From Agromyces protaetiae (GTDB lineage: Bacteria; Actinomycetota; Actinomycetes; Actinomycetales; Microbacteriaceae): DNA of 64,000 nt. This document shows positions 2 through 62,133 of the stretch, in pieces. The notes under the pieces were generated by a model. The model searched no databases. It had not been told where the DNA came from and saw only the letters and a program-made list of their open reading frames with translations. Position 1 is the stretch's first letter. Every line of letters begins with the position of its first letter. The stretch lies in the NCBI RefSeq assembly GCF_004135405.1, contig NZ_CP035491.1, positions 62,001 through 126,000 of the forward strand. Reading direction: 5' to 3'. Made by a program: the position numbers and the translations under genes.

Positions 2-2173
2 CCGTTCCGGTTCCGGATGGTCGCGAGCGACGTCGAACACGGGCTCGTCGAGTTCGAGGGACCGCTCGTGTTCGTCGAGAAGACGGTGCTCGACCAGTCG
101 GCGGGTGCGACCGCTGCGGCCTCGCTCGCTGCGCTCAACGGCGCTGTGCCGACGTTCGACCTGCGCGGCCAGCGCATCGCGTACGCCCCGCACGGCGACC
201 CCGACGACACGACGCTCTCGACCGCATCGGCCAGGTTCGTGTCGGAGCCCGACCCCGGCACGGCGGAGCGGTACACGAACTTCGTGCTGCCGCGCCTGCA
301 GGTGACGAACGCCGTCGTGCCCGCGATGAGCGCGTTCACGGGACAGAACGGGCCCGTGCCGCTGCGGTACCCGCAGGTGTTCGCCGACCACGGCCTCGAC
401 ACGGCCGGGCGCAACCGGGGCGAGCTGTTCCTCGAGGTGTCGAACGCCTCGGGCGGCACGGCGACGGCCCCGAAGCCGATGGACTTCGCGAAGCAGTCCG
501 ACCGATCGGGCGGGTTCCTCGCCCCGAGCGTCGCGATCAACTCTCTCGCCCGGCGACTGGGGCCCGTGGGCGGCGCGGTCGCCGCGCTCGACCAGAACCC
601 CGCCGGGTTCGATGCGGGATCGATGTTCCCGCCCGACATGGCGAAGCTCTTCGGCATCCTGTCGCTCCGCGACCTGCTGCCCGATGCGGGCAGCCCGCTT
701 CCGAAGTTCGCGACGCAGGCGGTCGACACGGTCGTCACGATCCAGACGGCGATCGTGCGCCTCCAGCAGCTCGACCCGGTCGCGGCGCTCGCGGGGCAGG
801 CGCAAGCGATCCAGGATGCCGCGGGGTCGCTCGTCGACCGGATCGAAGCCCTCGCCGACGCGGTCGCGGCGCTCGGCGCCGACCCAGCCGCATCCCCCGA
901 CCTCGACGGCATCCTCGGCGACCTCGGGGCCGCCGCCCGCACGCTCGCAGACGGCTGGAACGGGTTCGCGCCGAGCCTCGGCCTGCCGCGCGCGCACGTC
1001 GAACAGCTCGAGGGCGTCATCCGGAAGCTCTCCGACCTGAGCGACGACGTCACTGCCGTCGCGAAGGCCGTCGAGGCGTTCTTCCGCGGCGAGCTCCTGC
1101 CGCAGTCGATCGACGCCCGGCTCGAATGGTCGACCGAGCTCACGGCCTGGCCCCCCGGGGCATCCGTCTTCGAGCCCAAGGGCGATCGCACCCTCCGTCT
1201 CGTCGCCGAGACGAGCGCACCGCTCCGCCCCGGCGGGACGCCGACGGCGCTCGTGTCGTGTTCGCTGCCGCCCTTCGAACTGCGACTCGTAGGCCCCGAC
1301 GCAGTCATCCTCATCCGCTTCGAGGTCATGGAGTTCTCGATGCAGGCGGGGCGCAAGCCCGACGTCAACGTCGTGCTCGGCGACGAGAAGGGCATCGAGT
1401 TCGCGGGCGCGCTGAAGTTCGTCGAGACGCTGAAGGACATCATCCCGTTCGACGGGTTCAGCGACCCGCCCTACCTCGACGTGTCGCCGAGCGGCCTCAC
1501 GGCGGGCTTCGACCTCGCGATCCCCGACCTCGCGGTCGGCATCTTCGCGCTCACGAACATCACGTTCGGCGCCGAGATCTCGGTGCCCTTCATCGGCGAG
1601 TCGCTCGAGTTCCGGTTCTTCTTCGCGACGCGCGAAGACCCCTTCCGGTTGCAGGTCGCGTTCTTCGCGGGCGGCGGGTTCCTCGCGATCACCCTCACCC
1701 CGAAGGGCATGCGGGTCATCGAGGCGGCGTTCGAGTTCGGTGCGCAAGTGGCGCTGAGCTTCGTCGTCGCGAGCGGGTCGGTGTCGGTCATGGCGGGCAT
1801 CTACTTCCGCCTCGAGGTCATCGACGACGACAACCAGAGCGTGACGTTGACGGGATACTTCCGGGCGCGCGGCGAGGTCGACGTGCTCGGGCTCATCTCG
1901 GCATCGATCGAGATCTACCTCGAACTCACCTACAAAGAGGTCACGGCGGGCGGGCAGAAGCAGTCGAAGGCGTACGGCAAGGCGTCGATCACGATCGAGG
2001 TGAGCGTGTGCTTCCTGTCGTTCTCGGTGACGGCGTCGTGCGAGAAGCAGTTCTCGGGGTCGAAGGGCGACCCGACGTTCGCCGACATGCTCGGCGGCTA
2101 CGTCGACGCCCAGCAGGTCACGCGAGACCCGTGGGCCGAGTACTGCGACGCGTTCGCGGTCGAGCCGGCATAG
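2..2173 (+). CDS. Large beta-rich protein of unknown function, 5' end cut by window edge
   Basis: I do not recognise the family. The reading frame is open to the first base of the window and the first ATG (17) has no ribosome binding site, so this is the C-terminal part (at least 718 residues) of a longer protein. Residues of about 230-370 (counted from that ATG) are Ala/Leu/Asp-rich and probably helical or coiled coil. Residues 420-700 are dense in alternating hydrophobic patterns typical of long beta-sheets, with Gly/Phe-rich turns such as FFAGGGFLAITL. No signal peptide or classic membrane segment is visible in what is present. The stop is 16 bases before the next large gene, so the two are probably co-transcribed and act together. 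Cytoplasmic, surface or particle-associated roles are all possible. Confidence 0.75.
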   Translation, partial: PFRFRMVASDVEHGLVEFEGPLVFVEKTVLDQSAGATAAASLAALNGAVPTFDLRGQRIAYAPHGDPDDTTLSTASARFVSEPDPGTAERYTNFVLPRLQVTNAVVPAMSAFTGQNGPVPLRYPQVFADHGLDTAGRNRGELFLEVSNASGGTATAPKPMDFAKQSDRSGGFLAPSVAINSLARRLGPVGGAVAALDQNPAGFDAGSMFPPDMAKLFGILSLRDLLPDAGSPLPKFATQAVDTVVTIQTAIVRLQQLDPVAALAGQAQAIQDAAGSLVDRIEALADAVAALGADPAASPDLDGILGDLGAAARTLADGWNGFAPSLGLPRAHVEQLEGVIRKLSDLSDDVTAVAKAVEAFFRGELLPQSIDARLEWSTELTAWPPGASVFEPKGDRTLRLVAETSAPLRPGGTPTALVSCSLPPFELRLVGPDAVILIRFEVMEFSMQAGRKPDVNVVLGDEKGIEFAGALKFVETLKDIIPFDGFSDPPYLDVSPSGLTAGFDLAIPDLAVGIFALTNITFGAEISVPFIGESLEFRFFFATREDPFRLQVAFFAGGGFLAITLTPKGMRVIEAAFEFGAQVALSFVVASGSVSVMAGIYFRLEVIDDDNQSVTLTGYFRARGEVDVLGLISASIEIYLELTYKEVTAGGQKQSKAYGKASITIEVSVCFLSFSVTASCEKQFSGSKGDPTFADMLGGYVDAQQVTRDPWAEYCDAFAVEPA

Positions 2174-2189
2174 ACGACGAAGGGCGACG

Positions 2190-5100
2190 ATGGGCGAACA
2201 GGCGATCTTCACGGCGATCCCCGGCGGGCGCTTGGACGACGGGCGGCTGCGGGTCACGGTCTTCGTGACGCCCAAGCTCACGCCCGCGGTCGCGGGCGAC
2301 GAGCAGGCGCTCGTCGAGTTCGAGGCGTTCAGGGACTGGCCGCGCACGCTCCGCGATGCCAGGTGGGAACTGGATGTCGCGGGCGTCGGCACCTTCCCGG
2401 GCTCGCCGCTCGACGATCCGATCGAGCCCGACCGGGCGCTCTGGCACGCGCTCTTCGGCGGCACCCGCGTGGGCGAGGCGGGCTTCCAGCACTTCGAGCA
2501 GTCCGTCGTGCACTCCTACCCCGTCGAGGAGGTCGTGCGCGCGATCACGACGCTCTACGCGGACGCCGCGACGCAGTTCCCGACGGCGTTCCCGCCCGTC
2601 ACGACGAGCATCCTGAAGGACGCGCAGCAGGAGCTCTCCTCGCCCGGCCTCGAACAGGGTCGCGGCGACCGGCGCGCGATCCTCCGCGACTACCTTCGCC
2701 GGTACCGCAAGCTGAGCGACCCCTCGGGCGGCGGCCGCTACTTCCACATCGGCGCCGTCTCACCGTCCGAGCGACCTCGCGCGGCCCTCGCCGCGGCCGT
2801 CGGATTCTACGACCGGGCCGTCGACCCGCACGACCCCGCCAACCCGACCGCACCAGTTCCCCCGCCGGTGAAGCCCGAGTTCCACAGCTTCGCGGCCCGC
2901 TGCGCCGACTTCCCCGAGCTCATGCGCCATCTCGGCCTCGCGATCGACCTCTGGATCGACGACCCCGGGGTCACCGAGCGCACGACGACGATCCGAGTCG
3001 TCGCGGGGCTCAACGTCGACCCGCTCGAACGCCTCCTCGCGCCCGACGAGGCCCGCCCGTTCACACTGCTCCACTACTCCGACCGGTTCTGGGCTCCCGC
3101 GCCGCGGCGCGAGCGCGGAGACATCCTCGACGGCAGCCTCGCGCTCGACGACGTGGAGCGCTTCCTCCTCGAGCAGGTCGACCCCGACGGCATGGCGCTC
3201 AAGACCTCGCAACTCCTCGACTCGCTCGCGCGCACCGACGCCGTGCTGTCGTCCTCGCCCGCGAACGCGCTCGGCATGCCGTCGATGACCGCGGATGCCT
3301 CGTCGTTGCCCGCGCTCCGCTCCACAGGCCTCATCGTGGCGCGGCGGAATCGCGCGAAGGAGCTCGTCGCCCAGTTCGAGGAGTCGGCCGACCACGAGCG
3401 CGAGCGCACGGTCGCCATGCGCCCGGCGACGCTCGACGCGACGGATGTCACGCGCGGGTGGCGCATCGATGTCTACGACCGCGATTCGGCGACGGGCGAC
3501 TGGCAGTCCCTCCACGAGCGCGTCGGCGAGTACGAGCTCGTCGCGCCGGGCGCATCCCCCGAGCCGCTGCCCGTGCAGCCGAAGCCCGACGAGGGGTATC
3601 TGAAGGCCGCGAGCACGTCGAGCGAGGCGCCCGACCCTGCGGCCGACCAGTACCTGCACGAGACGCTCGCCGGGTGGGACGGCTGGTCGCTCGCCGTCAA
3701 GCGGCCGGGACGCCCGCAGACCGAGACGGGCACGACACCGGCGGATGCCGAACCGGATGTCGCCGACACGGGGTTCCCGCTCGCCGCCCGATTCCGGGTG
3801 AAGGGCGGCACCCTGCCGCGGCTGCGCTTCGGCCGTTCGTACCGCGTGCGCGTGCGCGCCGTCGACCTCTCGGGGCACTCGATCCCGTCGAAGCAACTCG
3901 ACGAACGACACGAACGCGACCTCGACGGACCGTATCTGCGGTGGGAGCCCGTGCCGGCGCCCGCCGTCGTGCCGCTCACCGAGTACACCGAGGGCGAGTC
4001 CCTCATGCGCATGGTGATCCGCTCGACCCTCGGTGAATCCGTCGACTCGTACATCGCGCTGCCGCGCGTCGCGGGGCTCGCGGGCCACGAACCGTCGGGG
4101 CGGATCGGCATCGTCTACCGCGAAGACAACGAGCGGCACCTCGCCGCGCCGCTCACGAGCGTGCAGCTCGCCGAGACGCACGGCGTCTTCGACGCGGCGC
4201 TCGCGGGCGATCCGGCGCAGGTCGCCGCGCAGTTCGCGATCGCAGCGAAAGAGGCGGGCAGCTATCTCACCTTGCCAGGTGCCCGGCTTGCGAACCCCGC
4301 ACCTCGACCGCCGGGCGAGGAGTTCACGTTCGCGAAGGACGACGCGCTCCGCGACGGCGAGGTGCTCGTGCACGACGTGCCCGAGCTGCCCCTCCCGTAC
4401 CTGCCCGACGTGCTCTCGCGCGGGATCTCGTTCACGACGCTCCCGGGCGACGGGGGCACGACGGGCAACCCTGCGACGCGCCTCCTCCGCTGGCCGGGCG
4501 ACCCGGCCGCGTGGCACGACCGGCTGCCCGTGCGCATCCGCGTCATCGAAGGCGACGGGGCGCCCTTCTTCGACGCCGACCGGCGCACCCTCACGGTCCC
4601 GCTCCCGAAGGCGACGCTCACGACCGTGCGCGTCTCGTCGTTCCTCGACGAGCGCGACGTCGACCTCCTCCGCGTGTGGGAGCTCATCGCCTCGCACCCG
4701 CAGGGCGGCGGCCCGACGTGGCTCCAGGCCGCCCGCGCGCGCGTGCGCGACGGCCTGCACTGGATGACGACCCCGTGGGCCGAGCTCACCCTCGTGCATG
4801 CCGTCGAGAAGCCCCTCGAGAAGCCCGTGTTCGCCCTGAACTCCGAGCAGAAGCGGCAGCGGAAGGACACGTTCTCGGTGCTCCCGGGCTTCCTCGACAA
4901 CCACGCCGCGAGCACGGGCCGCATCGACATCGAGGCCGACTGGTCCGACCCCGTCGACGACCTCTCTCTCCCCGAGCCGACGACCGCGACCCGGAACACG
5001 CACGTGGCCGACTTCCTCGTCACCCCGACCGAGTCGCACGCCCGCATCGGCCGCACGGCGATGGGCCCGGCGGGCCCCTACGGGCCGCGGCACGTCGTGC

Positions 5101-6719
5101 GGCACGAGTTCGGCGACACGCACCACCACTGGGTCGACTACCGCGCGATCGCGACGACGCGCTTCCGCGAGTACTTCCCGCCCGAGATCACGAACGACCG
5201 GAGCCTCATCGAGCACCCCGGCGACGTGCTCCGGGTGGATGTCCCGTCGAGCCGCCGCCCCGACCCGCCCGACGTGCGCTCGATCATCCCGACGTGGGAG
5301 TGGCAGGAGTCGCGGCTCGAGGTCGACGCTCCGTTCGCCGTCCGCCGCGTCCGCACGGGCGGGGGCCTGCGCGTCTACCTCGGTCGACCCTGGTACTCGA
5401 GCGGCGCCGACGAACTCCTCGGCGTCGTGCTTCGCGTGCAGCCGTGGCTCACGTCGGTCGTCGACGTCGAGCGGGGCGTCGCGGGGTCGCTCGCGGCGCG
5501 CGGCATCGCGGACGCGTGGGCTGCGACCGTGCTCGCCGAGCTCGGCGTGCCGTTCGAAGAGGTCGCGGCCGCGACATCCGCTTCGTCGTTCCTCGTCGAC
5601 AAGCTGACCGAAGCGGCCGAGACGTCCGCGAACGCGACCTCCCCCGAGTCGGCGGCCCCCGCGTACGGCGTCGTCGAAGGCCTCCGCGTCACGGGCGCAG
5701 GCGGCCGCATCGTCCTCGATCCCGGTCGCGCGTTCAGCGCGCGCGGCGAGGAGCTGCCGATTCTCGCCGCTCGCGCCCGACCGCGCGACGACGTCGAGCG
5801 GTTCCTGCTGGGCGCCGCCGCCGCCGTCGAGGAGGCCCGCGCGATCGACCTCTCCCCGGCGTTGCGTGAAGCCGCGGTCGCGGCGACCCTCGCCGAATGG
5901 CTCGACGTGTTCGCGCTCCGCACCTCGCCCGAGGGGCGTCGGTTCACGTCGTCGTGGGGCGTGGACCCCGTGTTCCGCGGCGAAGCGCTCCCGGCAGGGC
6001 CGTATGTGCACCAGTTCGCGCTGCGCACGGCCGTGGGCTACTCGGTGACGCTCGCCGAGATGGCCGGGGTCGACGGCACGTCGTCCGACCCCGTGACGGT
6101 CGTCGGGCACGAGCCGCACTTCGACCGCGAGCGCGGCCTCTGGTACTGCGACCTGCAGATCGACGCGGGCTCGGCGTACACGCCGTTCGTGCAGCTCGCG
6201 CTCGCGCGGTACCAGCCGCACTCGATCCCCGGCGAGGAGATCTCGGCGGTGTCGATGGCCGACTTCGTGCAAGTCCTGCCGCGACGCGAGGCGAGCTACA
6301 TCGTGGCGCCCGACGAAACGGCGCTCACGATCTCGCTCGCGGGCGCGGTCGGGGTGCCCGAGTTCGCGGCGAGCCTCTCGGGCATCGCGAACCAGGTCGC
6401 GGCGTCGAGGTTCGTGGAGGCGTGGATCGAGCGACTTCCGGCGGGCAGCGACAGCGACCTCGACTGGGAGCGGGTCGGCGGGGTCGTCACGCTCTCCCTC
6501 GTCCGTGCGCGGACGCGCATCGCCATCCTCCGGCCACGCTACGGGAACGTCGAGTGGGCGGGCGTCGTCGGCATGCCCGAGCGCGTCGACGGTGAGCGGT
6601 ACCGGGTGCGGCTCGCCGAGTACGAGCTGCACGCGGCCGACCAGAAGGGCCTCCTGCAGCTCGCGGCGCTGCGGAAGGCCCGCCGGATCGTCTACGCCGA
6701 CACGGTCGATCTGCCCTGA
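2190..6719 (+). CDS. Giant 1509-residue protein of unknown function
   Basis: I do not recognise the family. The ATG at 2190 follows a purine-rich stretch (gacgaagggcgacg) and lies 16 bases after the preceding large gene, so the pair looks like one operon that extends left beyond the window. There is no signal peptide and no obvious membrane helix. The protein looks multi-domain. Near residues 545-570 it has an Ig/FN3-like strand pattern (RLRFGRSYRVRVRAVDLSGH). Around residue 980 it has a His-rich stretch (GDTHHHWVDY), followed by an aromatic segment (RFREYFPPEI). Around 1060-1080 there is a Gly-rich strand segment (GGGLRVYLGRPWYSSG). None of these identifies an enzyme. Codon use matches the neighbours. 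The antisense strand also carries long open frames, which is a GC-skew effect and not a gene. Confidence 0.8.
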   Translation: MGEQAIFTAIPGGRLDDGRLRVTVFVTPKLTPAVAGDEQALVEFEAFRDWPRTLRDARWELDVAGVGTFPGSPLDDPIEPDRALWHALFGGTRVGEAGFQHFEQSVVHSYPVEEVVRAITTLYADAATQFPTAFPPVTTSILKDAQQELSSPGLEQGRGDRRAILRDYLRRYRKLSDPSGGGRYFHIGAVSPSERPRAALAAAVGFYDRAVDPHDPANPTAPVPPPVKPEFHSFAARCADFPELMRHLGLAIDLWIDDPGVTERTTTIRVVAGLNVDPLERLLAPDEARPFTLLHYSDRFWAPAPRRERGDILDGSLALDDVERFLLEQVDPDGMALKTSQLLDSLARTDAVLSSSPANALGMPSMTADASSLPALRSTGLIVARRNRAKELVAQFEESADHERERTVAMRPATLDATDVTRGWRIDVYDRDSATGDWQSLHERVGEYELVAPGASPEPLPVQPKPDEGYLKAASTSSEAPDPAADQYLHETLAGWDGWSLAVKRPGRPQTETGTTPADAEPDVADTGFPLAARFRVKGGTLPRLRFGRSYRVRVRAVDLSGHSIPSKQLDERHERDLDGPYLRWEPVPAPAVVPLTEYTEGESLMRMVIRSTLGESVDSYIALPRVAGLAGHEPSGRIGIVYREDNERHLAAPLTSVQLAETHGVFDAALAGDPAQVAAQFAIAAKEAGSYLTLPGARLANPAPRPPGEEFTFAKDDALRDGEVLVHDVPELPLPYLPDVLSRGISFTTLPGDGGTTGNPATRLLRWPGDPAAWHDRLPVRIRVIEGDGAPFFDADRRTLTVPLPKATLTTVRVSSFLDERDVDLLRVWELIASHPQGGGPTWLQAARARVRDGLHWMTTPWAELTLVHAVEKPLEKPVFALNSEQKRQRKDTFSVLPGFLDNHAASTGRIDIEADWSDPVDDLSLPEPTTATRNTHVADFLVTPTESHARIGRTAMGPAGPYGPRHVVRHEFGDTHHHWVDYRAIATTRFREYFPPEITNDRSLIEHPGDVLRVDVPSSRRPDPPDVRSIIPTWEWQESRLEVDAPFAVRRVRTGGGLRVYLGRPWYSSGADELLGVVLRVQPWLTSVVDVERGVAGSLAARGIADAWAATVLAELGVPFEEVAAATSASSFLVDKLTEAAETSANATSPESAAPAYGVVEGLRVTGAGGRIVLDPGRAFSARGEELPILAARARPRDDVERFLLGAAAAVEEARAIDLSPALREAAVAATLAEWLDVFALRTSPEGRRFTSSWGVDPVFRGEALPAGPYVHQFALRTAVGYSVTLAEMAGVDGTSSDPVTVVGHEPHFDRERGLWYCDLQIDAGSAYTPFVQLALARYQPHSIPGEEISAVSMADFVQVLPRREASYIVAPDETALTISLAGAVGVPEFAASLSGIANQVAASRFVEAWIERLPAGSDSDLDWERVGGVVTLSLVRARTRIAILRPRYGNVEWAGVVGMPERVDGERYRVRLAEYELHAADQKGLLQLAALRKARRIVYADTVDLP

Positions 6720-6725
6720 CGGGAC

Positions 6726-7448
6726 TCAGCTGAACTCGATCTCGCTCAGCTTGATCCAGATCATCGCGAGTTCGGTGACGGGCTCGGCATCGGGTCCGCG
6801 CACGTAGGCGCGCCGCGTCGTCGGCAGCCTGATCCCGCCCGCCTCGACGTAGTCGGTCGTGAGCTGGGCCGCCGGGAACCCGCCCGCGATGTTGACCCGG
6901 TAGTCGTGCCGGCGCAGCAGGTGGTCCTCGCCGTCGAAGGCGAACTCCTGCACGGCGCTGTGCGTCTCGATCGAGGCGGGGAACCGCGCCCTGAGCACCC
7001 GCCAGGTCTCTTCGTCCGCCTGGATCGGGTCGATCTCCTCGACCTCGACCCCGGGCAGCGCGAGGAGGAACGGCGTCGTGAAGTACGTCCACAACGCCTC
7101 GCCGTTGAAGTACGCCCGCTGGAGCGGATCCCACGGCGTGTTCATCTGATGCCCGGCGAACGAGTCCTTCGGCGCGAGCCGTTGCCCGACGACCGTGCCG
7201 TCGGTCTTCTCGACGGCGATCCGCTCGGGGGTGAAGACGCTGCGCTGGTCGGCCGCGCCGAACGGCTCGAGCACGACATGCTCCTCGTGCAGCGCGACGG
7301 TCATGCGTCGCGGCGAGTCATCCTGCACGATGCCCTTGAGCGAGAAGAATCCGCCGCCCGAGACGATCGTCGCCTCGACCTGCCGGTACCCGGCCCAGCG
7401 CTCGGCGCCGCCGTGGGCGTCGAGGACGTCGGCGAGGAAGGCGTTCAC
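6726..7448 (-). CDS. Conserved hypothetical protein, 240 aa, paired with alpha/beta hydrolase
   Basis: The function is unknown. The GTG at 7448 was chosen because it follows a purine-rich GTGAGGGGAC stretch and leaves a 13-base gap after the hydrolase stop, so the two are read as an operon. The sequence begins with a helix containing AHGGAERW and continues with repeated beta-strand patterns. This resembles soluble LolA-like beta-sheet proteins that often start with an Ala-His-Gly-Gly helix, but that resemblance is weak and is only an inference. No signal peptide, lipobox or membrane helix is seen, so it should be cytoplasmic. An in-frame extension upstream into the hydrolase gene is possible but would overlap it by about 200 bases. 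Confidence 0.7.
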   Translation of the reverse strand: MNAFLADVLDAHGGAERWAGYRQVEATIVSGGGFFSLKGIVQDDSPRRMTVALHEEHVVLEPFGAADQRSVFTPERIAVEKTDGTVVGQRLAPKDSFAGHQMNTPWDPLQRAYFNGEALWTYFTTPFLLALPGVEVEEIDPIQADEETWRVLRARFPASIETHSAVQEFAFDGEDHLLRRHDYRVNIAGGFPAAQLTTDYVEAGGIRLPTTRRAYVRGPDAEPVTELAMIWIKLSEIEFS

Positions 7449-7461
7449 GGTAAGAGTCCCC

Positions 7462-8283
7462 TCACTCCTGGATGAACGCCAGGATGTCTTCGTCGAGGGT
7501 CTGCTGGTAGGCGCCCTGGATGCCGTGCGGCGCGCCCGGGTACACCTTGAGCGTTCCCTTCGACACGAGCTTGATGGCCTTCTCCGCCGCGTCGCCGATG
7601 GGCACGATCTGGTCGTCGTCGCCCTGCGCGATGAGGATCGGGACATCCAACGCCTTGAGATCCTCGGTGAAGTCGGTCTCGGAGTACGCCTTGATGCAGT
7701 CGTACGCGGCCGACATGTTGACGAGCATGCTCTGCCGCCAGAAGTCGTCGATGAGTCCCTTCGAGATGCTCGACCCCGCGCGGTTGGCGCCGAAGAACGG
7801 GATCGCGAGGTCCTGGTAGAACTGCGAGCGGTCGCGCAGGAGCCCCGCGCGCGCCTGGTCGAAGTCCTCGATGGGCGTGCCGTCGGGGTTCGACTCGCTC
7901 TTGACCATGATGGGCGGCACGGCGCCCGCCGTGACGACCTTGGCGACGCGGCCCTTGCCGTACTGCGCGGCGTAGCGCACGACTTCGCCGCCGCCCGTCG
8001 AGTGCCCGACGACGACGAGATCGTGGAGGTCGAGGGCGTTCACGACGGCGGCGAGGTCGGCCGGGTAGTGGTCCATGTCGTTGCCGAGGTACGACTGCGA
8101 CGAGCGGCCGTGGCCGCGGCGGTCGTGGGCGATCGCCCGGTAGCCGGCGTCTGCGAAGACCTTGAGCTCGACCTGCCAGGCGTCGGAGTTGAGCGGCCAG
8201 CCGTGGCTGAAGAGCACGGGTTGCCCGCTGCCCTGGTCGGCGTAGAAGATCTGGACGCCGTCTGAGGTGGTGACGTACGGCAT
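7462..8283 (-). CDS. Alpha/beta hydrolase, non-heme chloroperoxidase/esterase type
   Basis: This 273-residue protein belongs to the alpha/beta hydrolase fold, closest in layout to bacterial cofactor-free haloperoxidases (perhydrolases) and related esterases. The family can make peracids from acetate and peroxide, or hydrolyse esters; the real substrate is unknown. Visible features are the oxyanion segment HGWPLNSDAW, the nucleophile elbow GHSTGGGEV with the catalytic Ser, an Asp in the GDDDQIVP loop and the C-terminal catalytic His in PHGIQG. There is no signal peptide. The ATG at 8283 has a strong Shine-Dalgarno (CAGGAGG) six bases upstream, so a longer reading from 8391 is rejected. It is divergent from the large LuxR regulator at 8455, and a small partner gene follows 13 bases downstream. 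Confidence 0.9.
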   Translation of the reverse strand: MPYVTTSDGVQIFYADQGSGQPVLFSHGWPLNSDAWQVELKVFADAGYRAIAHDRRGHGRSSQSYLGNDMDHYPADLAAVVNALDLHDLVVVGHSTGGGEVVRYAAQYGKGRVAKVVTAGAVPPIMVKSESNPDGTPIEDFDQARAGLLRDRSQFYQDLAIPFFGANRAGSSISKGLIDDFWRQSMLVNMSAAYDCIKAYSETDFTEDLKALDVPILIAQGDDDQIVPIGDAAEKAIKLVSKGTLKVYPGAPHGIQGAYQQTLDEDILAFIQE

Positions 8284-27644: not shown

Positions 27645-27821
27645 CCGGCGCGGGTCTCGCCTGATCGGGCCGCAGGCGTCGGCTATTCGAGTCATTCTCG
27701 GCACCTTTCATGCCCATCGTGCATCCTGACTCTGCGAATCGCATACGTTCTGCAAAATATGTTGCCGCCGTGCGCACCAGGCACTACCTTGACCGTGCCC
27801 AAACGATTCGAAGGAGATTCC

Positions 27822-30800
27822 GTGCGGCCACCCCTCCGGCTCCGCCTCGCAGCGGCCACCCTCTCGACCCTGCTCATCCCAGCGCTCGGCGTCACCGCGA
27901 TCGGTGTCACCGCGGCGTCCGCCGAAGAGACGCCACCGGCCCCCGCCGGCCCGGGAAGCCTCTACGACGAGCCGTTCGACGACCTCGCCGGCTGGACGGC
28001 CGTCACGGGCGCCGTCACCGAGTGGACCGTCGCCGACGGCACGATCGGCATCGACACCCGCGGACAGTCGTCGGGACGGTACATCCGCCCGACCGGCCCG
28101 CTCTCCCTGCCCGACGCGTACGAATTGCGCACGAGCGTCAAGATCGACGCGATCGATGCGCAGGGCACCGTCACCCTCATGCTCGACATGCGGAACCTCA
28201 CCGACTGGAAGAGCACTGGGATCAGCCCCCAGTTCTTCGGCTTCGACGCCGACGGCAACGGCAGGTTCCGCATCTCGAAGCCCATCGTCACCTCGACCGT
28301 GTGCGACGGCATCTCGCCGCTCGAACGCGGCGAGTGGACCGACCTCGTCGTCCGCCGCGCCGCGGGCATCACCGCGGTCTACGCAGACGGCGCACTCATC
28401 GGCGCCGTCGAGTCGCCCACCGCGGGCGGCACGATCGGCTTCGGCGCCTACAAGAGCGCCGCGAGCTTCGGCCCCGTCTCGATCGACCCCCTGACGGCGA
28501 CGCCCGAGGGACATCCGGCCACCGCCGTCGGCTGCCCGTGGAGCCCGCCCGTCACGCCGCCCGACCCGGCGCCCGGCACGGGCGAGGTCACGGGCTCGGG
28601 CGAGTGGACGCCCGCCGCGGCGACCTCCTCCGACCGCCCCGGCCACGAGGTCACGAGCGGCGAGTCGACGATCTCGCTCGACGGCGACTGGGCGTTCACG
28701 ACCGACCCCGACCGCTCGGGCGTCGCCGACGGCTTCCCGCTCGTCGCGACCTCGGTCGACGGCTGGGACACGCAATCGGTCCCCGGCAACTGGGACGTCC
28801 ACGACGAGTACGGCCGCTACACGGGCGCCGCGTGGTATCGACGCACCTTCGAGTCGGGCGATCTCAGCGCCGCCGCGGGCGAGCGGGCGTGGCTGCGCTT
28901 CGGCGCCGTCTACAACGACGCCACGGTGTGGCTCAACGGCGCCCGCCTCGGCTCGCACTCGGGCGGCTACACGCCGGTCGAGTTCGACGTCACCGACCAT
29001 CTCGTCGACGGCGAGAACACCCTCGTCGTCCTGGCCGACAACACGTTCCAACAGGGCGCGTGGTGGTCGTGGGGCGGCATCTCCCGCTCGGTCGAGCTGG
29101 TGAAGACCGCCGAGGTGCGCATCGACCGCCAGCAGATCGTCGCGACCCCCGACCTCGCGGCGGGCACGGCGCACATCGAGTCGACCGTCTTCGTCGAGAA
29201 CGCGGGCGACGAGGCACTTACGGTCGCGCTCACTGGTCGCATCACGGATGCCGCCACCGGCGCCGTCGTCGTCGACGGCCTCGAGGCATCGGTCGAGGTG
29301 TCGGCAGGCGGCACCGCGAACGCGTCGCTCACGGCCGACCTCGCCGAAGGCTCGTTCGAGCTCTGGAGCATGGACGACCCGAACCTGTACAGGTTCGATG
29401 TCGCCCTGGATGCTCCGGCCGCGTCTCAGAGCGACCGCTTCGGCATCCGCCTCTTCGAGATCGACGGCACGTCGATGCTGCTCAACGGCGAGCCCCTGAA
29501 GCTCGCGGGCGGCAACCGAGTCTCCGACGACCCGGCGAACGGCAACGTCGAGCCGACATGGCTCGTCCGTCGCGATCTCGACCGCATGAAGGCGTCGGGC
29601 ATGAACCTCTCGCGCATCATGCACTACGCGCAGTCGCCCGAGCTGCTCGACTACGCCGACGAGATCGGCATGCTCCTGATCGACGAGGTGCCGGTCTGGA
29701 ACCAGGGCCGCAACCTCAAGAACGACGTCGACGAGATCAAGCTCGAGTTCCGCGAGATGGTCGAGCGCGACTTCAACCACGCGTCGGTGTTCGCCCACTC
29801 GATCGCGAACGAGATCATCTCGTACGACCAGACCGGGCGCACCTACCTGCAGACGATGGCCGACTACTCGCACGAGGTCGATCCGACACGGTTCGTGACG
29901 GCCGCGAACGACAAGATCGACGAGGCCGACAAGGTGCCGAACGCGGCGTCCGACGGTGCTCAGTACATGGACTTCGTGAGCGTCAACATGTACGACAGCT
30001 TCGCTGCGAAGGTCGACCGGGCTCACCTGCTCTACCCCGACGTGCCGATCTTCGTCACCGAGTACAGCCCCGACGGCACGAGCCACCCGATCGAGCGCGA
30101 GTTGCTCGATCACACGACGGGCGTCGGCACGGCCGCGCAGGCGTTCGAGAGCCGCGACTTCGTCTTCGGCTGGTCGCAGTGGACCTTCAACGACTACCGC
30201 AGCGACTACTCGAACTCGAGCCGCGACCTCGTGCGCGGCTGGGGCAACGTCGACGTGTGGGGCCGGCTCAAGGCGGCGTACTGGCAGTCTCAGTCGTCGA
30301 ACGCGCCGGTCGCGTCGTTCACGCTCGGCGGCGTCACGTCGGGGGACGCGGGCGGGCTCGGCGTCGTGTCGATCACCCCGTCGGGCGAGGTGCCCGCGCA
30401 CGGGCCGTCGGACGTGCTCCGCGGCTACCGCGTGTCGCTGCAGGCGTTCGACGCCGCCGGAGCGGTCGTCGGCGGCACGATCGTCGACCTTCCCGAGGTC
30501 GCGCCTGGCGATGCGGCGTTCGACGTGCCCGTCGCGTGGCGTTCGCAGACGGGCGCGACGCGCGTGCGCGCGACGCTGCTGTCGGCGACGGGCTACGAGG
30601 TGGCGGTCGCGGTGACGGATGTCTCGGCGCCCGCCGCTCCCCTGATCACCGAGGTCGTGGCGGCGAAGGACGCCGTGCGCGTGCGCTTCGACGACCCGGC
30701 GAACATCGGCAAGTACCGCGTGGTCGCGACCGCGCCGGGCGGTGCGCGCACGACGGTCGACACCCGCGAGTCGTTCGCCGATCTGAAGGGCCTCACGACC

Positions 30801-32729
30801 GGAACCGAGTATGCGATCACGGTCGCCGCGGTCGGCTCGACCGGTGCCGGAGCGATCGCCGAGGCATCCGCGACCCCGACGGGTTCGCTCGCCCTTCCGC
30901 CCAAGGCGCTGAACCTCGAGCCCGTCGACGGCGGCGTCGTGCTCGGCTACGCGAGCCAGACCGCGGGCGGCACGTTCGAGGTGCGCGCGACCGACGCGTC
31001 GTCGGGCGCCGAGGTCGCGTCGTACACGACGACGAACCGGCCGGGCACGCGCGTCGAGGGTCTCGCGGCCGGCGTCGCGGTCGACGTGCGGATCCGCGAG
31101 GTGGATGCCTCGGGCGCGGCCGTGTCCGAGTGGAGCGACGCGCTGCGCGCCACGCCGCTCGCGGCCGACACCGTCCCCGTGCTCGATGTGCGCGGCGTCA
31201 TCGCCGGCTCCGACGAGGCGGGCATCGTCCTCCGCCCGTCGAACCGCACCGAGCGCTACCTCGTGACGGTGTCGGGCGAGGGCGTCGACCGCTCGTTCGC
31301 GGTCGAACGATCTGCGGTCGACCTCATCACGATCGACGGCCTCGCGCCCGACCGCGAGTACGCGGTGTCGATCGCCGCGCAGGGCGCGGGCGGCACGTCG
31401 GCGACGTGGTCGGGCAGCGTACGCACCCGCGTGCAGGCGTCGGGCGAGGCATCCGTGCCGACCGGCGTGCACGTGACGAACCGCGGCGACGACGCCTTCC
31501 TCGTGTGGGACGACTCGGGCGCCGACGGCTATCGCGTGGCGTTCACGGCGTGCGGTGAGACGACGACCGCCACGGTCTTCGGCGCCGAGTACTCGCTCGG
31601 CAAGATCGGACAGTTCGCGGGAGAGTACTCGGTCGCCGCCGTGGTCGGCTCGTCGGTGTCGGATGCCTCGGCGCCCGTCACCGCACCCGGCGAGGAGCGG
31701 TGCCCGCTCGTCGTGACGGTCGGCGACACTGTCGCGCGCGACGACGGAACGGTTCCGTTCCGCACGACGGGCACCTGGGCGAACAGCTCGCTCACCGCGC
31801 CCGGCGGCTACGCGTCGCGGTACGCGGAGGTCGCGAAGTCGCCGACCGCGTCGGCGACGTGGACGGCCCCGGTCCCCGACAGCGACGTCACCTCGCGGAT
31901 CGCGGTCGTGCTGCCCGCGAACGACCTCAACACGACGACGGCGACCTACTCGGTGCACACGGCCGACGGCGAGCAGCAAGTCGTCGTCGACCAGCTCGCC
32001 CGCGGCGGCGGCTGGGTCGAGCTCGGGGACTTCGCGTTCGACGAGGCCCACCCGCCGAAGGTCGTGCTCACGGCGTCGAACGGGTTCGTCCGCGCGTCGG
32101 CGGCCCGGTTCACCGACGTGACCGTACCGGTCGCCCCGGTCGACGGCGCCGCCGCGGCGCCGGCCGTCGGCGTGCTGAGCACCGACAACGGCTGGGACAC
32201 GGGGCTGCAGGACGGCGAGTTCACCGTCAGCATGAACCTGTGGTGGGGCGAGAACGCCACGTCGCTGCGGCTCTTCGAGAACGGCGAGCTCGTGTCGACC
32301 GTGCCGCTCACGCCGGCTTCGCCCGGGGCGCAGACGGCGTCGGTGCGCATCTCGGGGCTGCACAACGGGGTCTACCAGTACACGGGCGAGCTCGTGAACT
32401 CGAAGGGCGCGACGCGCGTGCAGCCCGTGACCGTGCAGGTGTCGCACGCGACGCCCGCGACGCCCGTGCTGAGCTCCGACAACTGGGACGGCGACGGCGT
32501 CTACACCGTCACCGCGAACCTGTGGTGGGGCACGAACGCCACCTCGTACCGGCTCCTCGAAGACGGCGCCGTCGTCGCCGAGGGCGCCCTGACCGCGGCG
32601 ACGCCCGGCGCGCAGCAGGTCGCGGTGCCGCTCACCGGTCGCGGCCCCGGCAACCACGGGTACGTCGTCGAGTTCCGGAATGCGGCGGGCGCGACATCCA
32701 GCGCTCCCCTCACCGTCGCGGTGCGATAG
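27822..32729 (+). CDS. Secreted multidomain glycoside hydrolase family 2 enzyme
   Basis: This 1635-residue enzyme is exported: the signal peptide is residues 1-34, cut after ASA. The order is a LamG-like/DUF1080-like jelly-roll domain (45-230), GH2 sugar-binding and Ig-like domains (275-550) and the TIM-barrel catalytic domain. The acid/base is predicted at Glu664 (HSIANEI) and the nucleophile at Glu747 (FVTEYS). Next come several FN3-like modules, a golvesin/Xly-type carbohydrate-binding module near 1300-1435 and two C-terminal repeats each containing NLWWG. GH2 enzymes are beta-galactosidases, beta-mannosidases or beta-glucuronidases; the specificity is open. The GTG at 27822 has AAGGAG five bases upstream. 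It probably feeds the sugar transporter encoded upstream. A strong terminator follows. Confidence 0.92.
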   Translation: MRPPLRLRLAAATLSTLLIPALGVTAIGVTAASAEETPPAPAGPGSLYDEPFDDLAGWTAVTGAVTEWTVADGTIGIDTRGQSSGRYIRPTGPLSLPDAYELRTSVKIDAIDAQGTVTLMLDMRNLTDWKSTGISPQFFGFDADGNGRFRISKPIVTSTVCDGISPLERGEWTDLVVRRAAGITAVYADGALIGAVESPTAGGTIGFGAYKSAASFGPVSIDPLTATPEGHPATAVGCPWSPPVTPPDPAPGTGEVTGSGEWTPAAATSSDRPGHEVTSGESTISLDGDWAFTTDPDRSGVADGFPLVATSVDGWDTQSVPGNWDVHDEYGRYTGAAWYRRTFESGDLSAAAGERAWLRFGAVYNDATVWLNGARLGSHSGGYTPVEFDVTDHLVDGENTLVVLADNTFQQGAWWSWGGISRSVELVKTAEVRIDRQQIVATPDLAAGTAHIESTVFVENAGDEALTVALTGRITDAATGAVVVDGLEASVEVSAGGTANASLTADLAEGSFELWSMDDPNLYRFDVALDAPAASQSDRFGIRLFEIDGTSMLLNGEPLKLAGGNRVSDDPANGNVEPTWLVRRDLDRMKASGMNLSRIMHYAQSPELLDYADEIGMLLIDEVPVWNQGRNLKNDVDEIKLEFREMVERDFNHASVFAHSIANEIISYDQTGRTYLQTMADYSHEVDPTRFVTAANDKIDEADKVPNAASDGAQYMDFVSVNMYDSFAAKVDRAHLLYPDVPIFVTEYSPDGTSHPIERELLDHTTGVGTAAQAFESRDFVFGWSQWTFNDYRSDYSNSSRDLVRGWGNVDVWGRLKAAYWQSQSSNAPVASFTLGGVTSGDAGGLGVVSITPSGEVPAHGPSDVLRGYRVSLQAFDAAGAVVGGTIVDLPEVAPGDAAFDVPVAWRSQTGATRVRATLLSATGYEVAVAVTDVSAPAAPLITEVVAAKDAVRVRFDDPANIGKYRVVATAPGGARTTVDTRESFADLKGLTTGTEYAITVAAVGSTGAGAIAEASATPTGSLALPPKALNLEPVDGGVVLGYASQTAGGTFEVRATDASSGAEVASYTTTNRPGTRVEGLAAGVAVDVRIREVDASGAAVSEWSDALRATPLAADTVPVLDVRGVIAGSDEAGIVLRPSNRTERYLVTVSGEGVDRSFAVERSAVDLITIDGLAPDREYAVSIAAQGAGGTSATWSGSVRTRVQASGEASVPTGVHVTNRGDDAFLVWDDSGADGYRVAFTACGETTTATVFGAEYSLGKIGQFAGEYSVAAVVGSSVSDASAPVTAPGEERCPLVVTVGDTVARDDGTVPFRTTGTWANSSLTAPGGYASRYAEVAKSPTASATWTAPVPDSDVTSRIAVVLPANDLNTTTATYSVHTADGEQQVVVDQLARGGGWVELGDFAFDEAHPPKVVLTASNGFVRASAARFTDVTVPVAPVDGAAAAPAVGVLSTDNGWDTGLQDGEFTVSMNLWWGENATSLRLFENGELVSTVPLTPASPGAQTASVRISGLHNGVYQYTGELVNSKGATRVQPVTVQVSHATPATPVLSSDNWDGDGVYTVTANLWWGTNATSYRLLEDGAVVAEGALTAATPGAQQVAVPLTGRGPGNHGYVVEFRNAAGATSSAPLTVAVR

Positions 32730-32747
32730 CTCGGTCGACATGCAGAG

Positions 32748-59598: not shown

Positions 59599-60279
59599 CT
59601 AGCGACCCCGCGCGGCGAACCCGTCGAGCAGCCGTTCGAGCCCCCACGTGAACTGCTCGGTGCCGATGTAGGCGGCCATGACGTCGGTCACGGCTGCGGT
59701 GCGCGGAAACCATTCGGCGGGCACTGCGGCGAAGGCGCCGCGGCGCTCGGCGATGCGGTCGGCCTCGGCGGGCAGCGGCACGGTCGGGTCGAGTTCGGAT
59801 GCCTCGAGCGCGACGGATCCGAGCACGTACACGATGACCGCATACGACGCGCGGGCCGCGTCGGCGGCGTCGAGGCCGGCTTCGGCGAGCGCGCCGAGGA
59901 GCCCCTCGCCGAGGGCGAGGGAGTTGGGGCCGTCGATGGGGGCGCTCATGAAGAGCAGGGCCGACCCCGGGTGGGCGAGGAGCCTCGTGCGGATGTCGAG
60001 GGAGACCCGCACGATGCGCTCGCGCCACGGGGCATCCGTGTCGTTCAGGATCTGCGTGTCGCGCTCGCCGACGATCCGGTCGACGACAGCGCGCAGGATC
60101 GCCTGCTTGTCGGGGAAGTACGTGTAGATCGCGTTGGGCGCGAGGCCCATCTTGGCGGCAATGCGCCGCACCGAGAGCGCGTCGGGGCCGTGCTCGTCGA
60201 GCAGGTCGAGTGCGACGCCGACGATCTGCTCATCGGTGAAGGCCCGTTCGGGGCCGCGTCGTCGTGGTCCTTCAGCCAT
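59599..60279 (-). CDS. TetR-family repressor (TetR_C-like)
   Basis: This 226-residue regulator has an N-terminal HTH (FTDEQIVGVALDLLDEHGPD to MGLAPNAIYTYFPDK) and a longer helical C-terminal domain. ATG at 60279 follows AAGGTGGACG. Divergent from a DUF4386 gene at 60392. The intergenic region carries ACACCGTACA twice, the first within the exact palindrome TGTAC-ACC-GTACA, which are good candidate operators for autoregulation and control of the neighbour. Confidence 0.9.
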   Translation of the reverse strand: MAEGPRRRGPERAFTDEQIVGVALDLLDEHGPDALSVRRIAAKMGLAPNAIYTYFPDKQAILRAVVDRIVGERDTQILNDTDAPWRERIVRVSLDIRTRLLAHPGSALLFMSAPIDGPNSLALGEGLLGALAEAGLDAADAARASYAVIVYVLGSVALEASELDPTVPLPAEADRIAERRGAFAAVPAEWFPRTAAVTDVMAAYIGTEQFTWGLERLLDGFAARGR

Positions 60280-60315
60280 TCGTCCACCTTTTCCGGAACT
60301 TCTTCGACCCACCTC

Positions 60316-60375
60316 TTGACGTTTCACTGTACACCGTACAACATTGCCTCATCAGCAAACGCTGGACACCGTACA
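60316..60375. promoter_or_regulatory. Paired TetR operators in divergent promoter
   Basis: TGTAC-ACC-GTACA (60328-60340), directly after a TTGACG -35-like hexamer (60316-60321). ACACCGTACA recurs at 60366-60375, 35 bases further on. Both lie between the TetR and DUF4386 genes. Confidence 0.65.
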
Positions 60376-60391
60376 GAGAAAGCGAAAGACC

Positions 60392-61141
60392 ATGAACAAG
60401 ACCACTACTCTGAAGGGCACGACCCTCACCGGCATCCTGCTCATCGCGAGCGCCGTCGTCGTCAACGTCGCCTTCACGGTGCTCGGCACCGCGTTCGACT
60501 ACCCCGACATCCTGCAGCGCCCCTCCGACGAAGTCCTCGGGCGATTCGCCGCGAACCCCGTCGTCATCGGCGGCACGTTCGCCCTCCTCGCCGCGGGCGC
60601 CGCGATGCTCGCCCCCATCGCCCTCCGACTGAACCGCCACTTCCCGGCCGGCCGCATCGGCACCGCCGCCGCGATCACGGGCGTCGCCGCCGCCGCTGTG
60701 CAGGTCCTCGGGCTCCTGCGCTGGCCGCTCATCGTGCCGTTCCTCGCGAACGCCCTCCCCGGGTCATCCGGCACCGAGCGCGAAGCGCTCCTCTCGACCT
60801 TCTCGACCCTGAACTCGGTGCTCGGCCAGACCATCGGCGAGACCTTCGGCTACCTCCTCACGACCGCGTGGACCGTGCTCGCCGTCATCGCCCTCCGCCG
60901 CGCGGGCGTCATCGGCCGCCTCACCGGCATCCTCGGCTTCGTCTCGGCCGCCCTCATCGTCACGGGTGTGCTCGTGCCGCTCGACGTGCCCTTCGCCGAC
61001 CAGGCCAACTTCGTCGGCTACATCCTCTGGAGCGCGTGGCTCGTGATCCTCGGCATCACGGCCATCGTGCGCGGCCGGCGGGCGAAGGCGGCGGATGTCT
61101 CGTCCGCGACCCGCGCGACCGCGCCCCTCGTCGGCGCCTGA
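60392..61141 (+). CDS. DUF4386 membrane protein
   Basis: This 249-residue protein has about six or seven membrane helices and the DUF4386 landmarks LTGILLIASAVVVNVAFTVL, LQRPSDEVLGRFAANP and QTIGETFGYLLTTAW. The family is uncharacterised but usually sits next to a regulator. It is divergent from a TetR gene with shared operators and is likely derepressed by that TetR's ligand. A long hairpin follows the stop. Confidence 0.9.
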   Translation: MNKTTTLKGTTLTGILLIASAVVVNVAFTVLGTAFDYPDILQRPSDEVLGRFAANPVVIGGTFALLAAGAAMLAPIALRLNRHFPAGRIGTAAAITGVAAAAVQVLGLLRWPLIVPFLANALPGSSGTEREALLSTFSTLNSVLGQTIGETFGYLLTTAWTVLAVIALRRAGVIGRLTGILGFVSAALIVTGVLVPLDVPFADQANFVGYILWSAWLVILGITAIVRGRRAKAADVSSATRATAPLVGA

Positions 61142-61166
61142 CCCGGCACCCTCCCCGCCTCGTCCA

Positions 61167-61226
61167 GTGAGGGGGCGGTTCGGCACGGTCGCGGAGACCC
61201 CGCACCGTGCCGAACCGCCCCCTCAC
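61167..61226. terminator. Long hairpin after the DUF4386 gene
   Basis: A perfect 23-bp stem (61167-61189 with 61204-61226) with a 14-base loop starts 26 bases after the stop. It is followed by CGTTTCG. The stem is longer than usual for a terminator, so it may be a repetitive palindromic element acting as one. Confidence 0.6.
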
Positions 61227-61295
61227 GTTTCGTCGTGGCATCCACCGGGCTACGCTCGTGACGACAGCGATCGGCGGCAGACGGCGGGGGCGACG

Positions 61296-61700
61296 ATGAC
61301 CGGCTCGGGCACGAAAGACGATCCCTGGCAGCTGACCACGGCGCCGGGATCCAGCGCGTACACGATGTGCCGCGACGAGGCATCCGACCCGCCCGAGCTC
61401 GTCTGCCAGGTCGGCTCGACGAAGCTCCGCTACCTGCTGCGGTCGATCGACGACCTGCACGCGTGGCTCCTCGAGCAGGGCGACTGGGTGCCGCTCGGCG
61501 CAGCAGACGAGCAGAAGCCCGCCCCCGACGGCAGCGTCGAGGCGTGGGGCCGCGACCCCGGCAACCCCGCCGGTGGCTGGTACGGCCTGCGGAACGGCTA
61601 CCGCGGACGGTTCGGCATGTACCTGCCGCCGCTCCTCGAGGCACTCGGCCTCGCCGAGCTCACCCACGACGCGCGCAACAACCGCGTGCGCGGAATCTGA
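61296..61700 (+). CDS. Conserved hypothetical protein, 134 aa
   Basis: This soluble protein starts with TGSGTKDDPWQLTTAPGSS and contains DDLHAWLLEQGDWVPLGAAD and a GGWYGLRNGYRGRFGMYLPP C-terminal half. This conserved sequence type is found in many actinobacteria; I know no function for it. ATG at 61296 follows GGCGGGGGCGACG. The next gene starts ten bases after the stop, suggesting co-transcription. Confidence 0.8.
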   Translation: MTGSGTKDDPWQLTTAPGSSAYTMCRDEASDPPELVCQVGSTKLRYLLRSIDDLHAWLLEQGDWVPLGAADEQKPAPDGSVEAWGRDPGNPAGGWYGLRNGYRGRFGMYLPPLLEALGLAELTHDARNNRVRGI

Positions 61701-61710
61701 GGAGCAGACG

Positions 61711-62133
61711 ATGCCGAACGACGTCGGGGCGAACCGTGCGCTCGTCGAAGCCGCCTTCGCGCGCTGGATGGACGGCACCGCCTACATCTCGAGCCTCTTC
61801 GCGCCCGAGATGACGTGGGAGATCGTCGGTCGCTCCGCCGCGTCGAAGAAGTACCCCGACGCGGCATCCTTCATCGGCCAGGTCCTCGAACCGTTCGGTC
61901 GCCGTTTCCCGCACGACACGCCCTTCCGTCCGGTGCGCATCCGAAGCATCCTCGCCGACGGCGACACCGTTGCCGTCGTGTGGGACGGCCACGGCACCTC
62001 CGTCGCGGGCACCGTGTACGAGAACACCTACGCGTGGTTCCTCACGATCGCCGACGGGAGGATCGTCGACGGCGTCGCCTTCTACGACAGCATCGCATTC
62101 GACGAGCTCTGGAACGGGGTCGACCCCGTCTGA
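61711..62133 (+). CDS. SnoaL/NTF2-like protein
   Basis: This 140-residue protein has the NTF2-like cone: LVEAAFARWMDGTAYISSLF, strand MTWEIVGRSAASKKY, VAVVWDGHGTSVAGTVYENT and the final strand IVDGVAFYDSIAFDELWN. It fits the SnoaL-like/ketosteroid isomerase-like group. Its catalytic role is undetermined. ATG at 61711 has GAGGAGCAGACG and follows the upstream gene by ten bases. Confidence 0.85.
   Translation: MPNDVGANRALVEAAFARWMDGTAYISSLFAPEMTWEIVGRSAASKKYPDAASFIGQVLEPFGRRFPHDTPFRPVRIRSILADGDTVAVVWDGHGTSVAGTVYENTYAWFLTIADGRIVDGVAFYDSIAFDELWNGVDPV

Follow-up and report, generated by a model that had tools for sequence, protein, structure and literature searches.

Two adjacent genes for very large proteins without a family match in Agromyces protaetiae and in distant bacteria

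What do two neighboring genes do that together specify about 2800 residues, adjoin each other in Actinomycetota as well as in Bacteroidota and Pseudomonadota, and match no family in the libraries searched? The question is posed by the left edge of a 64,000-nucleotide stretch of Agromyces protaetiae DNA (hereafter the window; bases 62001-126000 of a one-contig genome of 3.68 Mb), for which a first-pass annotation made from the sequence alone had suggested a surface, particle or conflict-type system. The two genes are called A and B below, and their features are collected in Table 1.

The two-gene unit and its inheritance

The presence of two very large codirectional genes, 16 bases apart, is confirmed by their open frames, by their third-position GC (0.94 in both, as in real genes) and by their homologues. 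Gene A runs leftward out of the window: from its likely start at genome position 60301 to its end at 64173 it encodes 1290 residues, the first 567 of them at 60301-62001, and an alternative in-frame ATG at 60136 would lengthen the protein to 1345. Of the earlier claim that the operon extends beyond the left edge, only A's own first 567 codons remain; the neighboring gene on that side (genome 59310-60137, Bestrophin-like by Pfam) is divergent, and the unit ends at A. To the right of B lies a convergent gene (window 6726-7646, minus strand, 306 residues) without a Pfam match. Flanked by a divergent gene on the left and a convergent one on the right, A and B thus constitute a two-gene operon and not the edge of a larger one. 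Further along, the window holds a 1656-residue glycoside hydrolase of family 2 that includes fn3, golvesin and chitinase-N-like domains (27759-32729, plus strand); the long frame on the opposite strand (27711-32741) has no family match and would seem to be an artefact of high GC.

Table 1. Features of the A-B unit, in window coordinates
Feature	Position	Strand	Basis or remark
Gene A, last 723 of 1290 residues	2..2173	+	Open frame; third-position GC 0.94; 188 database proteins at E <= 0.001
Predicted helical bundle in the middle of A, ~residues 810-928	728..1084	+	Residues 716-834 of the model of the relative L082 mostly helix, mapped via conserved columns
Predicted two-faced antiparallel beta sheet of A, ~residues 1052-1254	1454..2062	+	Porin-barrel-like; includes A's most conserved block
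Tail at the C-terminus of A (PWxxYCxAFA), preceded by a variable linker	2126..2170	+	Conserved
Ribosome-site-like GAAGGG in the A-B gap	2179..2184	+	Read from sequence; 5 bases before the B start codon
Gene B, 1509 residues	2190..6719	+	Open frame; third-position GC 0.94; 249 database proteins at E <= 0.001
Predicted Fn3/Ig-like stretch of B, ~residues 876-1023	4815..5258	+
Variable insertion of B, ~residues 1120-1240	5547..5909	+	Between the main body and the conserved C-terminal part

The protein database yields 188 homologues of A and 249 of B at E <= 0.001, queries included and with only the candidates sharing most words scored; the closest named relatives of both come from Agromyces. The pair is filed under no known family, in line with the first-pass statement that neither protein has a recognized domain. 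Pfam and NCBIfam give nothing at E <= 1 for the part of A inside the window or for whole B, PADLOC-DB 2.0.0 gives no family for whole A, whole B or one giant alphaproteobacterial pair, PHROGs returns noise (E 0.11 and 0.3, both for A), and no paper on the pair was found among open-licence articles of PubMed Central. What the pair does may yet turn out to be familiar in kind.

When 30 relatives of A (whole A of the window included) were scanned, no consistent Pfam family emerged. The commonest, Baculo_PEP_C (4 of 30, best E 2.2e-5), was set aside as a putative match to the helical middle, and the further families, mostly helical, were interpreted likewise. Among PDB sequences the B profile finds no match, and the A profile finds mostly helical ones, most of them within the same helical middle. 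Two database labels were also discarded: "Tc toxin complex TcA C-terminal" on an A relative (P0192), which has no precomputed Pfam domain and corresponds to no family in the scan of 30, and "Baseplate protein J-like" on a B relative (P0016), a label of the source that again comes without a precomputed Pfam domain.

The two genes are inherited together. Genome contigs were scanned non-exhaustively with a profile of A, via two peptide patterns, and the best 80 of 129 relatives were taken. B (sought by its own profile) adjoins A on the same strand, with A first, in all 80 loci; the median gap from A to the first possible start of B is 10 bases. By record titles, 34 loci come from Actinomycetota, 30 from Bacteroidota, Ignavibacteria and Kapaibacteria, 15 from Pseudomonadota and one from a Firmicute. 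Both genes are broken in one locus (L072) and B in another (L071); B also runs off the end of some contigs. A search that started from B finds the gene in 3 of 36 other genomes of the genus, each time with A adjacent, and in none of 23 genomes of the order. The pair is thus conserved beyond this genome, and occurrence of the genes apart, which had been named as a refutation, is seen in none of the 80 loci. Pairwise distances within A and within B correlate at r = 0.986 over 72 sequences (71 loci and Agromyces protaetiae; maximum 0.092 in 999 permutations), a value to which shared descent contributes too and which was compared with permutations only.

Clustering of the flanking frames of the 80 loci (frames of at least 80 residues, up to 10 kb per side, less on short contigs) gives no cluster in more than 9 loci, hence no conserved third gene, and, of the 40 clusters listed, those that keep one position and orientation stem from closely related loci. 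Seven Microbacteriaceae loci, compared over about 15 kb per side, have a single frame in common (E <= 1e-20), which lies well away from the pair, so that the pair evidently occupies different places. As far as can be seen, the pair is the entire module. A candidate empty site in another genome of the genus (G009), where homologues of both flanks lie about 10 kb apart, was rejected: the intervening genes are unrelated to this region and the spacing looks coincidental.

The spread is patchy, at about 1-5% of the sampled genomes per phylum. A is present in 11 of 396 Actinomycetota, Agromyces protaetiae included, in 14 of 296 genomes sampled from the phylum of a Marinifilum locus and in 4 of 299 from that of an Alcaligenaceae locus, the last two counts including the centre genome. 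Among 72,556 plasmid records, 14 match A and 9 match B; none of 50,697 phage records matches either at E <= 1e-5. A search of IMG/VR gives nothing for A and a single weak relative for B, whose contig (L107) carries the A-B pair. On this contig, which is classed as viral, A is split over two frames and its start is Tat-like; the B frame has 2422 residues. What look like fragmentary or split versions of the pair are found on rhizobial plasmids (L152, L154 and L100), with transposases near L152 and L154.

Export signals and predicted folds

The first-pass annotation had seen no signal segment. This holds for the window, where A has no twin-arginine (Tat) motif and no signal is seen on B, but not for some of the relatives, whose A proteins carry Tat motifs. 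A of Bacteroidota, Ignavibacteria and Kapaibacteria has a Tat motif with a hydrophobic stretch in 27 of 30 loci; the other three start at a contig end, which makes it 27 of 27 evaluable. The motif is also present in all four enlarged A proteins of alphaproteobacteria (3 kaa) and in A of Streptomyces sp. NBC_01334, and is absent from two further tested plasmid copies without the enlargement, from the 15 Pseudomonadota loci and from the Firmicute. Two of the 34 actinobacterial loci are cut off, 24 lack the motif and 8 pass a loose Tat test with a stretch that sits inside A's conserved first domain; frames here were read from the first possible start and searched over 100 residues, and the true start may be deeper. 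With called starts, 2 of 120 database A proteins (Agromyces protaetiae included) pass a loose test, neither being signal-like. The NCBIfam model TAT_signal_seq performs weakly on these sequences, scoring above its cut-off in 2 of 10 A N-termini, and 2 of the 10 have no NCBIfam match whatever.

Scans for motif and hydrophobicity, made without a signal predictor, reveal no evident Sec signal peptide on A, which has either a Tat motif or no evident signal. The starts of B in the 80 loci were assessed from hydrophobicity and by direct reading in place of a predictor, with some frames starting too early; they have no hydrophobic signal, and in the model the N-terminus of B is ordered from residue 2. 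Four pseudomonadote A proteins (L079, L083, L086 and L094) begin with a basic tail rich in Lys, Arg and Ala instead of a signal. In Sinorhizobium meliloti pC, a tatA gene of 55 residues follows B by 49 bases (L103 21659-21826; Pfam TatA at 36.7 bits, cut-off 21); in the three other giant loci, neither annotation nor inspection places one directly behind B, so an adjacent tatA is found in one of four. The abstract of PMC10924467 states that certain Tat substrates are exported in heterodimeric form, one partner bearing the signal. Judged from the sequences, some lineages probably export the pair folded; for Agromyces protaetiae, such export is unproven.

The helical center and beta-rich C-terminal end that the first pass had ascribed to A reappear in the predicted model of the relative L082. 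The predicted sheet superposes on porin-type barrels (VIA, among Foldseek's own candidates only, in rows that cover parts of the model), a result that long two-faced strands alone could produce. Conservation of its hydrophobic face equals or exceeds that of the polar one, a pattern compatible with a buried core and with lipid alike. Conservation falls to 0.28-0.45 at residues 1271-1275 and returns in the tail just behind them, where W, Y, C, A and F are invariant in 30 of 30 rows of alignment A2 and W, Y, A, F and A reach at least 90% in the 147 rows of alignment A3.

Models of B are beta-rich and bear a weak resemblance to Fn3/Ig domains, with residues ~876-1023 as the candidate for the Ig-like strands proposed earlier. 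The whole chain matches no PDB structure; against a viral fold library, 2 rows have E <= 0.001, both with TM < 0.1, and the Fn3-like rows have low TM. Around the variable insertion, residues 1085-1257 contain no invariant column in alignment A1, and the matches of two B relatives break at residues 1119-1190.

What the pair may do

We tentatively take A and B to form a single complex as its two subunits; it would be exported in folded form wherever A carries a signal and would act at the envelope or on lipid. We give this reading a little under an even chance. A two-gene operon inherited as a unit would encode one very large complex, and the strict linkage of A and B suggests that this complex is obligate; that the two form a single complex is likely. 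Both proteins would fold in the cytoplasm. Where A bears a Tat signal, i.e., in Bacteroidota and kin and on alphaproteobacterial plasmids, export would be of the folded form, and B, having no signal of its own, would be carried along; such joint departure is plausible. The hydrophobic face of the predicted sheet would be covered by B, lipid or membrane, and, since this face needs cover, the complex would most likely act on lipid or at the cell envelope. For B, a scaffold of Fn3/Ig type is probable, and for the conserved last residues of A, a docking peptide. In Agromyces protaetiae, where A has no signal, the complex would stay inside or leave by some other route.

A more far-reaching proposal makes the pair a new two-protein machine, in which a porin-like or lipid-holding sheet is folded in the cytoplasm under a giant scaffold partner, exported by Tat outside Sec and BAM, and then inserts into a membrane or carries lipid; we consider it decidedly unlikely. 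If Tat export of a folded A sheet with B as its cover proved true, the question would arise of how a large two-faced sheet stays soluble without Sec and BAM.

The same observations can be read without lipid. A and B may build a dry scaffold on the surface, purely structural or adhesive, whose many beta domains form a long rod or mesh; A's sheet would then be no more than a usual hydrophobic core, and neither lipid nor membrane activity would be involved. The beta-rich models of B with their weak Fn3/Ig resemblance, the great size, the Tat motifs of some lineages and the high conservation of A's hydrophobic face all agree with this scaffold. It is nevertheless somewhat unlikely, given that no adhesin, anchor or sorting family is matched in Pfam or NCBIfam and that the actinobacterial copies have no credible export signal. 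The latter point, together with the lack of a credible signal on 15 pseudomonadote A proteins (several with basic N-terminal tails) and of any signal on B, argues for a giant cytoplasmic complex in most hosts, a store, an enzyme scaffold or similar, to which export was added later in Bacteroidota and on alphaproteobacterial plasmids. Against this stand the Tat motif in every evaluable locus of the Bacteroidota side and the absence of an enzyme family among Pfam and NCBIfam matches, and we regard such a complex as clearly unlikely.

Patchy presence and plasmid carriage, with one copy near dpdE-dpdH in Agrobacterium vitis (genes of 7-deazapurine DNA modification and restriction) and another on a plasmid stretch with an HsdR-type gene, would suit a conflict or defence module, i.e., a toxin, antiphage or competition system. 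We hold this very unlikely: PADLOC gives no match, the flanking clusters include no immunity-like conserved third gene, and the most conserved block of A is C-terminal, the opposite of polymorphic toxins with their variable tip. Descent from a phage or particle module (tail, baseplate or contractile device) is barely conceivable, the source name of P0016 and the weak resemblance of B to Fn3 tail proteins (TM about 0.1) being outweighed by the empty search of the phage records, by PHROGs hits at noise level and by IMG/VR, where A has no relative and the contig of the single weak B relative carries the A-B pair. A match to a known phage tail family, another refutation named in the first-pass annotation, thus appears neither in PHROGs nor in the phage records. 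The interpretation offered there is supported in part; the phage and catalogued defence readings find no support.

Comparison with known systems

Alphaproteobacterial plasmids carry giant pairs in which an A of 3.0-3.3 kaa is followed by a B of 1.8-1.9 kaa, split in one record. Both profiles match these pairs, whose proteins are annotated "hypothetical" (e.g., S. meliloti pC SO078_RS29800/29805 and Ruegeria THAF33 FIU92_RS17480/17475). Their A has over double the length of the one described here and contains long additional stretches at the N-terminus and in the center; the pairs are themselves uncharacterized. On a plasmid of Agrobacterium vitis CG957 (L097 7201-31056), a giant pair with B in two frames lies a few genes before dpdE-dpdH.

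DUF6603 (PF20248) and the frame downstream of it make up a parallel uncharacterized giant pair: in 3 of 3 loci (L149, L150 and L151; longest-frame lengths) a protein of ~975-1160 residues precedes a same-strand frame of 926-1084 residues. PF20248 is matched neither by A nor by the other members of the 30 scanned. No link of DUF6603 to A or B emerges: in a comparison that covers 3 genomes and at most 50 of 120 listed homologues (every second one above 1000 residues), hhalign gives whole profiles a probability of 0.46%, DUF6603 against the C-terminal part of A 2.1% versus 0.8% for a reversed control, and the DUF6603 partner against B 0.1%.

Outer-membrane beta barrels (CymA, OmpG, FhaC and LptD) share two-faced strands with the predicted sheet of A but differ in that no Sec signal is seen on A and the turns in its model are short; to our knowledge, Agromyces has no outer membrane. 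Microsomal triglyceride transfer protein and lipovitellin give A its best Foldseek E (6.8e-5) and resemble it in combining a beta part, a helical part and large beta sheets; the match to these large lipid transfer proteins reaches a TM of 0.07 and a probability of 0.20, i.e., no superposable fold. Finally, the well-known Tat-exported heterodimers (hitchhiker mechanism) are smaller cofactor enzymes, and in the A-B pair the signal is present only in part of the lineages; the two arrangements agree in that a single partner bears the signal and the two genes adjoin.
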